Assembly: GCA_017521295.1 (NCBI GenBank) | Contig: JAFXDF010000068.1 | Span: 1 to 64,000 of the forward strand | Direction: 5' to 3' | From: Clostridia bacterium | GTDB lineage: Bacteria > Bacillota > Clostridia > Oscillospirales > Butyricicoccaceae | DNA: 64,000 nucleotides | In this document: positions 8,349-53,450 of the stretch, in pieces | Layout of the letters: every line of letters begins with the position of its first letter | How positions within the stretch are numbered: the first letter of the stretch is position 1 | Program-made: the position numbers and the translations under genes | The notes under the pieces: model-generated | Databases searched by the model: none | The model's input: the letters and a program-made list of their open reading frames with translations, nothing else | Told to the model about the DNA's origin: nothing

Positions 8349-8978
8349 TCAGTCTATTTCGGTGCCGCCCCACTCCACCAGGGCAAAGCCGTGGCGGTCA
8401 AAGGCGGGCAAGGTCTGGGCAGGGATATCCACCGGCGCCTCCAGGGGCTGCCAGGCCATAAAGACCCGCAGGATGCTGTCGGGGGCGGGGGTGACGGTGA
8501 GTTTTGCCGCTTCGGTGTAGGCCTCCTGCTGGAAGGCGATGAGGTTGTAGGGGCTCTGCTCCATTCGGGGCAGCCAGTAGACGATGAACTCGTTGGCCTC
8601 TTTCCGGGTCAGACCCAGCTGTGCCAGGGTGTCCTCCAAAAAGGCGGCGGTATCGGCGCCGGCAACGCAAAAGCCCCGGGAAAAGTCGTACCGCTCGGTG
8701 CCCTCACCCTCCCAGTACAAATAATTATAAGTCTGGCCGGCGGCGTCGGTCAACGTGCCGTCGGGAGCGGCGGTGACCGTCCAGCCGTTTTCATAGGCCG
8801 GATAGGTACAGGTCAGTTTGCCGGTATAGTCCAACTGCACGGTGACATCGGTCACCTCCTCGGGGTAGAGATAGATGACGGGCTTTTCAGCCGGACGATC
8901 CGGTTCGATCAGATCCCGGCAGCCGCACAGGGACAGCAGGAGCAGGGCGGAAAGCAAAATCGTCAGATACTTTTTCAT
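8349..8978 (-). CDS. KPVIYLYP-family lipoprotein, tandem copy 1
   Basis: A 209-residue protein of unknown function and the third-transcribed of three tandem paralogues. The signal peptide ends in a lipobox (LCGC, Cys20), so it should be a membrane-anchored lipoprotein. After a short linker comes the shared domain: KPVIYLYPEEVTDVTVQL, GWTVTAAPDGTL, YNYLYWEGEGTERYDFSRGF, a Leu-rich helix and YWLPRMEQSPYNLIAFQQ, ending VEWGGTEID. The domain looks all-beta at first and mixed later. Start ATG 8978 follows AAAGGAGAAG; a longer frame to 9050 runs into repeat copy b. I know the domain only as conserved and uncharacterised. Confidence 0.8.
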   Translation of the reverse strand: MKKYLTILLSALLLLSLCGCRDLIEPDRPAEKPVIYLYPEEVTDVTVQLDYTGKLTCTYPAYENGWTVTAAPDGTLTDAAGQTYNYLYWEGEGTERYDFSRGFCVAGADTAAFLEDTLAQLGLTRKEANEFIVYWLPRMEQSPYNLIAFQQEAYTEAAKLTVTPAPDSILRVFMAWQPLEAPVDIPAQTLPAFDRHGFALVEWGGTEID

Positions 8979-9003
8979 AGCACTTCTCCTTTCCTGGAGC
9001 CAT

Positions 9004-9094
9004 GTCATTCTGAGGGCAACGCCCGAAGAATCTCCTCCGTCCGCGGACAAGCGCCTGTGGTGGGAGATCCTTCGCCGTTCCGGCTCAGGATGAC
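9004..9094. repeat. Dispersed palindromic repeat, copy b
   Basis: A 91-bp copy with GTCATTCTGAG at one end and CTCAGGATGAC at the other, and inner arms GAAGAATCTCC / GGGAGATCCTTC. It fills most of the gap between copies 1 and 2 of the KPVIYLYP genes. Confidence 0.9.
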
Positions 9095-9103
9095 ATTTTT
9101 ATA

Positions 9104-9760
9104 TTACTTCACTTCGGCCCCGCCCCACTCCACCAGGGTAAAGCCGTGGCGGTCAAAGGCGGGCAGGGTCTGGGCAGGGATATCCACCGGGGCCTCCAGG
9201 GGTTGCCAGGCCATAAAGACCCGCAGGATGCTGTCGGGGGCGGGGGTGACGGTGAGTTTTGCGGTATCGGTATAGGCCTCCTGCTGGAAGGCGATGAGGT
9301 TATAGGGGCTCTGCTCCATTCGGGGCAGCCAGTAGACGATGAACTCGTTGGCCTCTTTCCGGGTCAGCCCCAGCTGGGCCAGGGCGTCCTCCAAAAAGGC
9401 GGCGGTATCGGCCCCGGGGACGCAGAAACCCTTGGAAAAGTCGTACCGCTCGGTGCCTTCACCCTCCCAGTAGAGATAATTGTAGGTCTGGCCGGCGGCA
9501 TCGGTCAATGTGCCGTCGGGGGCGGCGGTGACCGTCCAGCCGTTTTTATAGGCCGGGTAGGTACAGGTCAGTTTGCCGGTATAGTCCAGCCGCACGGTGA
9601 CATCGGTCACCTCCTCGGGGTAGAGGTAGATGACGGGTTTGGCCGGGACAGAGTTTGGGCGGCCATCAAAGGGCAGGCCGGATTCCGCCAGCCGCAAAAG
9701 ACCGAAAATCAGCAAAAGCAGCACACACAGGGCGAGCAAAATCTTTAGGATCGTCTTCAT
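9104..9760 (-). CDS. KPVIYLYP-family membrane-anchored protein, tandem copy 2
   Basis: A 218-residue paralogue of the neighbours on both sides. The N-terminus differs from copy 1: a transmembrane helix (about residues 5-24) without a lipobox cysteine, then a linker into the same KPVIYLYPEEVTDVTVRL domain. From there to VEWGGAEVK it is near-identical to the other copies. Start ATG 9760 has an AAAAAGGAGG site; the longer frame to 9859 runs into copy 3. The domain probably faces outside (inference). Function unknown. Confidence 0.8.
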   Translation of the reverse strand: MKTILKILLALCVLLLLIFGLLRLAESGLPFDGRPNSVPAKPVIYLYPEEVTDVTVRLDYTGKLTCTYPAYKNGWTVTAAPDGTLTDAAGQTYNYLYWEGEGTERYDFSKGFCVPGADTAAFLEDALAQLGLTRKEANEFIVYWLPRMEQSPYNLIAFQQEAYTDTAKLTVTPAPDSILRVFMAWQPLEAPVDIPAQTLPAFDRHGFTLVEWGGAEVK

Positions 9761-9806
9761 AAAGAGCCTCCTTTTTCGGCAGGTGCGTGAACACTTTCCT
9801 TCGGCA

Positions 9807-10460
9807 TTATTGCACTTCGGCGCCGCCCCACTCCACCAGGGCAAAGCCGTGGCGGTCAAAGGCGGGCAGGGTCTGGGCAGGGATGTCCACCGGGGCCTCC
9901 AGGGGCTGCCAGGCCATAAAGACCCGCAGGATGCTGTCGGGGGCGGGTGTGACGGTCAGCGGGGCGGCGTCGGTGTAGGCCTCCTGCTGGAAGGCGATGA
10001 GGTTATAGGGGCTCTGCTCCATCCGGGGCAACCAGTAGACGATGAACTCGTTGGCCTCTTTCCGGGTCAGACCCAACTGGGCTAGGGCGTCCTCCAAAAA
10101 AGCGGCGGTATCGGCCCCGGGGACGCAAAAGCCCCGGGAAAAGTCGTACCGCTCAGTGCCCTCGCCCTCCCAGTAGAGGTAATTGTAGGTCTGGCCGCTT
10201 GCATCGGTCAATGTGCCGTCGGGGGCGGCGGTGACCGTCCAGCCATCCTTGTAGGCCGGGTAGGTACAGGTCAGTTTGCCGGTATAGTCCAGCCGCACGG
10301 TGACATCGGTCACCTCCTCGGGGTAGAGGTAGATGACGGGCTTGGCAAAGAGGACCTGGTCCTCTCTGGGTGCCAGACCCAGCAGCAGAAACAGGACAGA
10401 GACGATGACAAACAGATACAAAACTGCCTGCAGGATCCGTTTGAGGATATATTTTGTCAT
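9807..10460 (-). CDS. KPVIYLYP-family membrane-anchored protein, tandem copy 3
   Basis: A 217-residue, first-transcribed member of the triplet. Its own N-terminus (MTKYILKRILQ, then a transmembrane helix at about residues 12-30) joins the shared domain, which starts at KPVIYLYPEEVTDVTVRL and ends VEWGGAEVQ. Start ATG 10460 has an AGAAAGGAG site. It lies 71 bases after the serine hydrolase gene in the same direction. Different anchors on a nearly unchanged domain suggest recent tandem duplication or gene conversion limited to the domain (inference). Confidence 0.8.
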   Translation of the reverse strand: MTKYILKRILQAVLYLFVIVSVLFLLLGLAPREDQVLFAKPVIYLYPEEVTDVTVRLDYTGKLTCTYPAYKDGWTVTAAPDGTLTDASGQTYNYLYWEGEGTERYDFSRGFCVPGADTAAFLEDALAQLGLTRKEANEFIVYWLPRMEQSPYNLIAFQQEAYTDAAPLTVTPAPDSILRVFMAWQPLEAPVDIPAQTLPAFDRHGFALVEWGGAEVQ

Positions 10461-36584: not shown

Positions 36585-36702
36585 ATCAAAAAACACCCTT
36601 TTTCTCTCATAGTTGGTAACAGTATAGCAGAAAAAGCGACAAAAAGGAAGAGGGAAACGGCCGGTCTTTCCAGCCTCGATATCCGCCCGCACCCGGAGCA
36701 TG

Positions 36703-36774
36703 GTCATCCTGAGGGATCTCAGGGCAAGTCCGCCGTGAGATCCCTCGGCTCCGCTTCGCTCCGCTCAGGATGAC
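36703..36774. repeat. Dispersed palindromic repeat, copy f
   Basis: A 72-bp copy with GTCATCCTGAGG and CTCAGGATGAC ends, lying in a 311-base gene-free stretch (36585-36895). The part before it (36585-36702) shows nothing else that I recognise. The left 14-bp direct repeat starts two bases after it. Confidence 0.88.
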
Positions 36775-36776
36775 AA

Positions 36777-36790
36777 GAGGCGCCTTTCCC
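36777..36790. repeat. Left 14-bp direct repeat flanking an AT-rich regulator module
   Basis: GAGGCGCCTTTCCC, identical to 37567-37580. The two copies enclose a 776-bp AT-rich stretch with the HTH and small membrane protein genes, and may be an insertion or excision footprint. Confidence 0.75.
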
Positions 36791-36846
36791 AATTACCATT
36801 TTGTCTGATTTCATATAGAATTCAAATTCTTTCGTCGAACCGCATA

Positions 36847-36884
36847 GAAAAGGGTCCCCTCTTTGAATGGGGGGAGACCCTAAA
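36847..36884 (-). terminator. Intrinsic terminator after the small membrane protein gene
   Basis: Minus strand AGGGTCTCCCC paired with GGGGACCCTTTTC around a loop, just downstream of the stop codon. Confidence 0.8.
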
Positions 36885-36895
36885 ATCAAACATGC

Positions 36896-37189
36896 TTAGC
36901 CAGTAAATCCAAACCAGATAAGCAATCCGATACCTATCAAGCCGGCGATAACACCGGTATATAAATAAGGCTTTTCTTCATATTTATGATATTTATAGAA
37001 TAATTCTGCTGCTGCGCCGATGAACAGGAGTGCCAAACTGCCTTTCCAGGCTGGATTACCTTTGAACAGGCAAATGATGGTCAAAATCTGTGTTGCGGCA
37101 ATAACGAAGTTGAGTGCGAGACTCTCTGATTTAATCTGTATTTCTTGGTCACGTTCATCTTTGAGCGGACGATTGATTTTCTTGCTCAT
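36896..37189 (-). CDS. Small membrane protein partnered with an HTH regulator (DUF6442-like)
   Basis: A 97-residue protein. A polar, charged N-terminus (MSKKINRPLKDERDQEIQIK) leads to about three hydrophobic segments (residues 27-43, 50-62 and 76-94). Such DERDxxI-headed small membrane proteins commonly sit next to XRE regulators in Firmicutes and are annotated with DUF numbers; I am not sure of the exact family. Its start lies inside the HTH gene (35-base overlap), so translation is coupled. AT-rich, unlike the host DNA. Function unknown. Confidence 0.72.
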   Translation of the reverse strand: MSKKINRPLKDERDQEIQIKSESLALNFVIAATQILTIICLFKGNPAWKGSLALLFIGAAAELFYKYHKYEEKPYLYTGVIAGLIGIGLLIWFGFTG

Positions 37190-37406
37190 ACTGTTGATCC
37201 TCCAGTTCTTTGTTTTCTTTTAAGCAACACAGTTCTTCAACCGTCACACCAAAGATTTGTGCAATACGGTAAGCCAACATCAAGGAAGGGCTGTATTGCT
37301 CTTTTTCAATCGAGATAATTGTACGGGAGGAAACATGAACTAAGCTCGCTAACTGTTGTTGTGTCATATTTGCCTCTGTCCGTAACGCTTTTACCTTTGT
37401 TTTCAA
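37155..37406 (-). CDS. XRE-family HTH transcriptional regulator
   Basis: An 83-residue Cro/CI-like repressor. The helix-turn-helix is TQQQLASLVHVSSRTIISIEK (residues 15-34 region), followed by YSPSLMLAYRIAQIFGVTVEEL, the standard XRE tail. No ligand domain. Start is TTG 37406 behind AAAGGAGGCAG, a strong site for a weak start codon. It precedes and overlaps the small membrane protein gene. Overlapping palindromes just after its -10 box suggest autorepression. Confidence 0.9.
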   Translation of the reverse strand: MKTKVKALRTEANMTQQQLASLVHVSSRTIISIEKEQYSPSLMLAYRIAQIFGVTVEELCCLKENKELEDQQYEQENQSSAQR

Positions 37407-37434
37407 ATCACTGCCTCCTTTTGATTATGAAGCA

Positions 37435-37485
37435 AACTTCACGTGAAGTTGACTTCATCATAACGTGACACAACCACATTGTCAA
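37435..37485 (-). promoter_or_regulatory. Promoter with overlapping palindromic operators of the HTH gene
   Basis: Minus strand TTGACA (37485-37480), 17-base spacer, TATGAT (37462-37457). Right after the -10 box lie two overlapping inverted repeats: TGAAGT-TG-ACTTCA (37444-37457) and the perfect 16-bp palindrome AACTTCACGTGAAGTT (37435-37450). They cover the expected transcription start, a position suited to repression by the encoded XRE dimer (inference). Confidence 0.78.
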
Positions 37486-37566
37486 GTGCCATAGTGGAAT
37501 ATCAAAAGGAACTCAATTGTTGAATTCAACGAACTTCTCAGTATCAGACAAACTGGTAAAAGGGAC

Positions 37567-37580
37567 GAGGCGCCTTTCCC
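37567..37580. repeat. Right 14-bp direct repeat flanking the AT-rich regulator module
   Basis: GAGGCGCCTTTCCC, the same as 36777-36790. It ends one base before the tRNA-Ser promoter. Confidence 0.75.
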
Positions 37581-37581
37581 C

Positions 37582-37610
37582 TTGACAAGATTTCACAAAT
37601 AGGATAAACT
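37582..37610 (+). promoter_or_regulatory. Promoter of tRNA-Ser
   Basis: TTGACA, 17-base spacer, TAAACT, 12 bases upstream of the tRNA. Confidence 0.75.
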
Positions 37611-37622
37611 GGTTGGGTACAC

Positions 37623-37714
37623 GGAGGAGTACCCAAGAGGCTGAAGGGTCCGCACTCGAAATGCGGTAGGCGTCTAAACAGCGCGCAAGGGTTCAAATCC
37701 CTTCTCCTCCGCCA
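37623..37714 (+). tRNA. tRNA-Ser (anticodon CGA)
   Basis: A 92-base type II tRNA with encoded CCA. Acceptor GGAGGAG pairs with CTCCTCC; the anticodon stem CCGCA/TGCGG holds the loop CTCGAAA with anticodon CGA (reads UCG). A long variable arm (GGCGTCTAAACAGCGC) and TTCAAAT T-loop confirm serine. Followed by its own terminator. Confidence 0.96.
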
Positions 37715-52027: not shown

Positions 52028-52552
52028 ATGAAAAAGTTTATTTCTGTCATTCTGATGGCCGCTCTGGCCCTGTCCCTGTTTGCCGCCTGCGGCAAGGACG
52101 AAGCCCCCAAGGGCGCCGACCTGTCCGGCGAGACCTGCGAGGCTCTGGTCAACAAGATCTACGAGACCAAGATGCCCGAGTTCGCTCTGATGACCATGCC
52201 CGTTGACCTGGCCGATGCTGAGACCACCGCCTGGCTCACCGGCGTTTCCGATCCCGCTCTGCTGAAGGAAGCCGTTGTTTCCGAGTCCATGATGGGCTCC
52301 CAGGCCTACTCCCTGGTGATGGCCCGCGTCAACGACGCCGCCAAGGCCGAGGAAGTTGCCAACATGATGCTGGAGAACATCGATCCCGTCAAGTGGATCT
52401 GCGTCCAGGCCGATGACATCGACGCCGCCATCTACGGCGACCTGGTGCTGTTCGTCATGATCGACAGCCAGTTCGGCATCCCCGCCGCCGACTTCATCGG
52501 CGCTTTCAAGACCATCGCCGGCGGCAACCTGGACAAGGAGCTGTCCAAGTAA
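52028..52552 (+). CDS. DUF4358-like lipoprotein, copy 1
   Basis: A 174-residue lipoprotein (lipobox FAAC, Cys21) with a domain of about 140 residues. It is followed by a paralogue sharing MTMPVDLADA, TTAWLTGVSDPALL, QAYSLV.ARV.DAAKAEEVA, ML.NIDP.KWICV.ADDI and FIMIDSQ-type segments. I believe this is DUF4358, found in Firmicutes often beside MBOAT and DHHW genes, as here. Function unknown. ATG 52028 follows TTGGAGGAAC. It lies 42 bases after the anti-sigma gene. Confidence 0.8.
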   Translation: MKKFISVILMAALALSLFAACGKDEAPKGADLSGETCEALVNKIYETKMPEFALMTMPVDLADAETTAWLTGVSDPALLKEAVVSESMMGSQAYSLVMARVNDAAKAEEVANMMLENIDPVKWICVQADDIDAAIYGDLVLFVMIDSQFGIPAADFIGAFKTIAGGNLDKELSK

Positions 52553-52637
52553 GGGACGCCTGCTGTTTTCCCACGCGGGGCGGCTCTGCCGCCCCCTTTT
52601 CACGCCAATTTAGAGAGAAATCACGGAGGTATCTTCC

Positions 52638-53450
52638 ATGAAAAAGATCCTGGCCCTGCTGCTGAGCCTGACCATGCTGGCCTCTCTGGCCGCCTGCGGC
52701 AGCAATGAGCAGCCCGCCGAGACCCCCACCGAGCCCGCTACCCAGCCTTCCATTCTGCCGGCACCCGGCGATCTGACCAAGCCTGCCCCTCCTTATGAGA
52801 CCGGCACCGAGGCCTCCACCGAGGCTCCTACCGAGGCCCCCACCGAGGCTCCTACTGAGGCTCCCACTGAGGCTCCCACCGAGGCTCCTACCGAGGCTCC
52901 CACCGAGGCTCCTACCGAGGCTCCTACCGAGGCTCCTACCGAGGCTCCCACCGAGGCTCCCACCGAGGCTCCTACTGAGGCCCCTACTGAGGCCCCCACT
53001 GAGGCTCCTGCCGAACCCCAGATGCCCGTGGACACCCTGAGCCCCATGGTGGACCAGATCTATGCCATCAAGGGCCCCCAGTTCATGCACATGACCATGC
53101 CCGTTGACCTGGCCGATGCCGACACCACCGCCTGGCTCACCGGCGTTTCCGATCCCGCTCTGCTGACCGAGGCCGTTGTCAACGAGTCCATGATGGGCGC
53201 CCAGGCCTATTCTCTGGTGCTGGCCCGGGTCAAGGACGCCGCCAAGGCCGAGGAAGTCGCCCAGATGATGCTGGACAACATTGATCCCCGCAAGTGGATC
53301 TGTGTGGAGGCCGACGACATCGCCGCCGCCATCAAGGGCGACCTGGTGATGTTCATCATGATCGACAGCCAGATGGGCCTGCCTGCCGCCGACATGGTGG
53401 ATGCCTTCTCCCAGGTGGCCGGCGGTGTGGACAAGACCCTGTCCAAGTGA
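52638..53450 (+). CDS. DUF4358-like lipoprotein, copy 2, with Thr-Glu-Ala-Pro repeat linker
   Basis: A 270-residue paralogue of copy 1. After the lipobox (LAAC, Cys20) comes a Pro/Thr-rich stretch and then 17 tetrapeptide units, one TEAS and sixteen TEAP (residues 57-124), then the DUF4358-like domain (about 130-270). The linker would hold the domain well away from the membrane, perhaps across the wall. The stop TGA is also the first triplet of a hairpin attached to repeat copy i. ATG 52638 follows ACGGAGGTATC. Confidence 0.83.
   Translation: MKKILALLLSLTMLASLAACGSNEQPAETPTEPATQPSILPAPGDLTKPAPPYETGTEASTEAPTEAPTEAPTEAPTEAPTEAPTEAPTEAPTEAPTEAPTEAPTEAPTEAPTEAPTEAPTEAPAEPQMPVDTLSPMVDQIYAIKGPQFMHMTMPVDLADADTTAWLTGVSDPALLTEAVVNESMMGAQAYSLVLARVKDAAKAEEVAQMMLDNIDPRKWICVEADDIAAAIKGDLVMFIMIDSQMGLPAADMVDAFSQVAGGVDKTLSK
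52806..53009 (+). repeat. In-frame 12-bp minisatellite, 17 units
   Basis: ACCGAGGCTCCT-type units, 17 in a row, coding Thr-Glu-Ala-Pro (the first is Thr-Glu-Ala-Ser). Units differ only at synonymous third positions (ACC/ACT, CCT/CCC, GCT/GCC). A length change in steps of 12 keeps the frame, so the linker can vary by slippage. Confidence 0.95.

Follow-up and report, generated by a model that had tools for sequence, protein, structure and literature searches.

Mobile insertion cassettes are defined by inverted repeats, a lack of any transposase gene nearby, a target duplication in the usual case and cargo that has its own promoter (PMC3913671). For some accepted mic elements, no transposase has been found (PMC3913671). 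A stretch of DNA from a Clostridia bacterium of the family Butyricicoccaceae (the first 64,000 nucleotides of contig JAFXDF010000068.1, here termed the window) contains a small AT-rich island that is best read as a non-autonomous insertion cassette resembling these elements, with a target duplication of 9 or 14 bp. The probability of this reading is put at roughly 0.55. Two inverted repeats of 23 nt, with 20 of 23 positions matched, bracket the island at both edges. There is no transposase gene inside or nearby: the genes within encode an XRE regulator and a DUF6442 protein, and the identified neighbours are D-glutamate cyclase, tRNA-Ser and an SNF transporter. A direct repeat is also present, the right copy of which is native, and it abuts the inverted repeats inexactly. 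The features of the locus are collected in Table 1.

Table 1. Features of the island and its immediate surroundings, in window coordinates
Feature	Position	Strand	Basis or remark
Repeat copy f, dispersed palindromic intergenic repeat	36703..36774	.	Adjoins the cassette's left side; RNA-fold z -3.95
Left 14-bp direct repeat GAGGCGCCTTTCCC	36777..36790	+	Putative duplicated target copy
Left inverted repeat TCCCAATTACCATTTTGTCTGAT	36787..36809	+	20/23 complementary to 37543-37565
Terminator-like hairpin downstream of the operon	36852..36880	-	MFE -19.2 kcal/mol, z -1.94
DUF6442 (PF20040) small membrane protein, 97 aa	36896..37189	-	Pfam E 3.4e-10
XRE/HTH_3 regulator, 83 aa, TTG start	37155..37406	-	Pfam HTH_3 E 2.2e-13
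Palindromic operator ATGAAGCAAACTTCACGTGAAGTTGACTTCAT overlapping the -10 box	37427..37458	.	Inverted repeat; same layout upstream of nearly all relatives
Operon promoter TTGACA-17-TATGAT	37457..37485	-	11 of 12
Right inverted repeat TCCCTTTTACCAGTTTGTCTGAT, read on the minus strand	37543..37565	-	Sequence, flank shuffles
Right 14-bp direct repeat	37567..37580	+	Native sequence directly upstream of the tRNA-Ser -35 box
tRNA-Ser(CGA) promoter TTGACA-17-TAAACT and gene (37623-37714)	37582..37714	+	Neighbouring host gene

The direct repeat, GAGGCGCCTTTCCC, is exact over 14 bp, and its two copies are separated by 776 bp with 40% GC, compared with 61% GC in the window. No third copy is found in the genome with one mismatch allowed, and membership of a wider repeat family was rejected on this ground. 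The length of the repeat by itself is little proof, since about ten other direct repeats of at least 14 bp and less than 3 kb apart occur in the window outside duplicated genes. Shuffles of the local region gave an exact direct repeat of at least 14 bp in 6 of 3000 cases. The telling feature is the placement of GAGGCGCCTTTCCC at both edges of the island: shuffling of the two 150-bp flanks, which were picked after the repeats had been seen, gave a direct pair as good in 0 of 3000 cases. Other repeats are present in the window. Positions 8364-10350 contain three similar tandem stretches of ~700-755 bp, apparently repeats within a coding region, and 52190-53370 contain a direct duplication spaced at ~900 bp, with short repeats lying in between (52816-53010).

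The inverted repeat is imperfect and lies immediately inside the direct repeats. It was missed in the preliminary description of this DNA. The core reads TTACCA[T/G]TTTGTCTGAT. With the same flanks, chosen with the repeats in view, an inverted pair as good appeared in 1 of 3000 shuffles, and in none of 3000 once the direct-repeat bases were excluded. The inverted and direct repeats meet asymmetrically: between the 17-bp core and the direct repeat there are 2 nt on the left and 7 nt on the right. When joined, the ends give ATCAGACAAACTGGTAAAAGGGA-CGAGGCGCCTT-TCCCAATTACCATTTTGTCTGAT, a symmetric site in which, by the inverted-repeat coordinates, 23-bp arms surround an 11-bp spacer.

The XRE and DUF6442 genes overlap and are the sole genes inside the island. 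The regulator scores 50.5 bits with HTH_3 (curated cut-off 23) and the membrane protein 40.5 bits with PF20040 (curated cut-off 25), which places both in these families. The preliminary description had proposed an exact 14-bp repeat pair around AT-rich DNA, within it an XRE regulator overlapping a small membrane protein, with an operon promoter, palindromic operators and a terminator. The repeat pair, both genes, the promoter and an operator were recovered, and the membrane protein could be assigned to DUF6442. Of the terminator, the hairpin stands; its tail comprises only four T residues, and a consensus terminator scan gave it no score. The DUF6442 protein is 72-41% identical to those of four relatives. 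Searches for membership of defence or toxin-antitoxin systems returned generic HTH matches only for the XRE protein and none for the membrane protein. DUF6442 was not found in plasmids, phages or viral contigs, and a literature search on DUF6442 or DUF2178 returned nothing. The XRE protein is most likely a self-repressed regulator, with TGAAGTnnnCTTCA as the operator to which it would bind across the -10 box of its promoter, and it may be tuned by the membrane protein.

A search for the module at other loci, as suggested in the preliminary description, was productive. XRE homologues with 56-86% identity are found at unrelated sites in L072 and in ten further genomes from the family, the closest of them in other genera. 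The module homologues are widespread yet patchy in the family. An operator of the form ATGAAGTnnnCTTCAnnTGAAGTnnnCTTCAT overlapping the -10 region is common to nearly all relatives, with only a shorter form in L081; L079 is a degraded copy of the module. Two very AT-rich contigs catalogued as viral, L111 and L112, carry an XRE and DUF2178-like gene pair with the same operator.

Eleven relatives are readable at the junction behind the XRE gene, comprising ten family or genome contigs and the viral contig L111, of which L112 is a near copy. In all eleven, a gene for a DUF2178-like membrane protein comes next and begins at offset 217, counted from the start of XRE; the DUF2178 match falls just under the curated cut-off in the two members scanned. 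L072, L075, L076 and L083 have DUF6442 in third position, and L078 has it in part. Only the window has DUF6442 at the second position. As DUF6442 itself begins at offset 217 there, the window operon is a reduced three-gene operon from which the DUF2178-like middle gene was deleted from start codon to start codon. This loss produced the overlap of the XRE and DUF6442 genes and the XRE read-through tail QENQSSAQR; the XRE proteins of the relatives end in ...QYENL/EDL. As a natural deletion, it points to the part that the operon might be able to do without. The module flanks of eleven relatives, scored alike, reach 7-9 for inverted and 8-12 for direct repeats, and the window scores 14 and 14. Among the modules compared, the window copy alone has end repeats.

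Repeat copy f, to the left of the island, belongs to a repeat with ~66-bp matches at dozens of genome sites and has the palindrome GTCATCCTGAG...CTCAGGATGAC. It probably lies outside the cassette. The 14-bp repeat was considered as a piece of repeat f and rejected, other copies of repeat f being without it. The module is absent from all eight congeners searched, with one genome per species in the comparison. In the congener G004, the cyclase, tRNA-Ser and transporter genes are in the same order, and the cyclase-to-tRNA gap is ~120 bp, without the module and without repeat f. As repeat f is missing there too, this gap is not a one-event empty site. In G005, a gene for an SLH-domain protein, unrelated to the module, is situated between the cyclase and tRNA-Ser. 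Homology of the left side with both G004 and G005 stops near 36657, and from this we infer that repeat f with its flanks is also extra relative to these two genomes; the order of events is likewise a reconstruction.

The sequence ahead of the tRNA -35 box is GACACCTTTCCCCTTGACAA in G005 and GGGCGCTTTCCCCTTGACA in G006. Each of these genomes thus has one copy of the repeat, in diverged form, immediately before the tRNA promoter, with CRCCTTTCCCCTTGACAA common to the window and G005, and GGCGCTTTCCCCTTGACA in G006. Because of these single copies, the 14-bp copy on the tRNA side is native and the other copy is its presumed duplicate. The tRNA-Ser(CGA) neighbourhood displays gene turnover in these congeners. 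A BspA-type leucine-rich-repeat gene with terminator-like copies on both sides lies between the tRNA and the transporter in G004 (L084, 3100-4660). The SLH-domain gene precedes the tRNA in G005 (L085, 4620-6547), where the tRNA-Ser 3′ end and terminator are repeated downstream near the contig end (6276-6547), the pattern expected if an element had integrated at an att site there.

A self-contained cassette, inserted beside the tRNA gene and without an integrase of its own, had been put forward in the preliminary description, and it is the reading best supported by the eight congeners without the module, the inverted repeats at the ends and the native copy on the tRNA side. The end repeats, the patchy presence, the bare site in a congener and that native copy are its observational basis. 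Two findings had been named as counting against it, a module with diverged flanks in all relatives and both 14-bp copies without the module. The module is missing from the eight congeners, and the two copies were never found together without it.

The cassette would comprise ~780 bp, with imperfect inverted repeats at the ends, an XRE-DUF6442 operon that runs from promoter to terminator and no gene for a transposase or integrase. Its insertion point would be native sequence immediately ahead of the tRNA-Ser(CGA) promoter, and the target would have been duplicated on insertion. The target duplication may be 14 bp with unequal tips. Alternatively, if the tips are placed at 36786 and 37566, it may be 9 bp (GAGGCGCCT); the tips would then be mismatched, and tip and target would have to share TTCCC by chance. 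The likely route is transposition, with the transposase supplied in trans by an insertion sequence whose ends match those of the cassette. Such a donor insertion sequence would be flanked by TCCCnnTTACCAnTTTGTCTGAT, and the uninserted allele would read ...GGATGACAAGAGGCGCCTTTCCCCTTGACAAG..., with repeat f beside the tRNA promoter and one 14-bp copy. If the cassette does move, small operons of unknown function encoding an XRE regulator and a membrane protein can spread without a mobility gene, and this would go some way towards accounting for their patchy occurrence in the family.

No mobilising enzyme or donor was found among end pairs in the genome, the genus and 394 genomes of the order, in two transposase families or in the integrase neighbourhoods. 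A second inverted arm pair is present neither in the genome nor in the genus when the arm pattern is searched with at most two mismatches, nor in the 394 order genomes with at most one, and 59 arm matches in viral contigs include none with an inverted partner. The transposase search of the genome covered PF01609 (DDE_Tnp_1) and PF00872 (Transposase_mut) and detected no protein of either family. Casposons produce duplications of 14-15 bp. A casposon-like duplication was rejected, there being no Cas1 and no tRNA 3′-end target. IS4-family elements produce target duplications of ~7-13 bp (PMC2266710), and a 9-bp duplication would fit, but their conserved ends (CA.., CT..) differ and no family is claimed.

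Ordinary horizontal transfer with illegitimate or micro-homology recombination in an often re-used gap, the end repeats being by-products or coincidence, is a possible but distinctly less probable account. The gaps between the cyclase, tRNA-Ser and transporter genes hold differing genes across congeners, so that turnover here needs no ends of this element, and 14-bp repeats are common in the window at large. Against this, the occurrence of both repeat types at both edges is jointly improbable, and the module's other copies lack such repeats.

It is unlikely that the cassette was integrated site-specifically by an enzyme of the tyrosine-recombinase type provided in trans. The 14-bp repeats would then be the att core, and the circle would contain the 23-bp inverted arms and 11-bp spacer. 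The symmetry of the joined ends, the tRNA neighbourhood and seven Phage_integrase matches in the genome are in its favour. However, the core lies outside the tRNA gene, ahead of its promoter, the element has no integrase gene, and sequence beside the seven integrase matches resembles the arms no better than random stretches used as control. The fused ends gave only weak, chance-level matches in plasmids and phages, none of note as an attP, and their generalised pattern gave one match in a viral contig. Slightly more doubtful still is the proposal of a minimal integrase-less site-specific gene cassette, whose end repeats would form a symmetric recombination site by which the 0.8-kb operon enters and leaves upstream of the tRNA promoter with the enzyme of another element.

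An ancestral module at this locus that was lost in the congeners is improbable. Homologues do occur across much of the family, if unevenly, but all eight congeners are without the module, other copies in the family are at unrelated sites and the composition is strongly unlike that of the host. An assembly or binning artefact can practically be dismissed: the draft is fragmented (113 contigs, 88% complete, 3.4% contamination), but the island is inside a 75-kb contig, its two sides are linked in G004 too, and a 14-bp repeat would be too short to mislead an assembler easily.

As with integrase-dependent islands and satellites associated with tRNA genes, the insertion cassette proposed here has direct repeats near a tRNA gene. 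It differs in having no integrase and a size of only 0.8 kb, and its repeat, in place of an att core in the tRNA gene, is outside the tRNA and upstream of the promoter. The related operons of an XRE gene with a DUF2178-like gene, in some cases also with DUF6442 (L072, L074-L083, L111, L112), share a regulator up to 86% identical, a conserved layout of palindromic operator and promoter and a DUF6442 protein up to 72% identical. Unlike the window copy, they contain the middle membrane-protein gene and are without comparable end repeats.

Differences from mobile insertion cassettes are seen in the cargo, which is an XRE-DUF6442 operon, in repeats that do not abut symmetrically and in the size of the putative duplication, 9 or 14 bp compared with 2 bp in mic-qnrD (PMC3913671). 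The MIC231 type has ends that match an insertion sequence with a trans-acting transposase. As searches of the genome, the genus and the order sample gave no second copy of the ends, and PF01609 and PF00872 transposases were not found in the genome, the window cassette is described as mobile-insertion-cassette-like and not as a member of the MIC231 type. With MIC231 of Bacillus cereus and mic-qnrD it has in common imperfect inverted repeats of ~24 bp around the passenger gene or genes, a cargo promoter of its own, the lack of a transposase gene and, putatively, a target duplication (PMC3913671).
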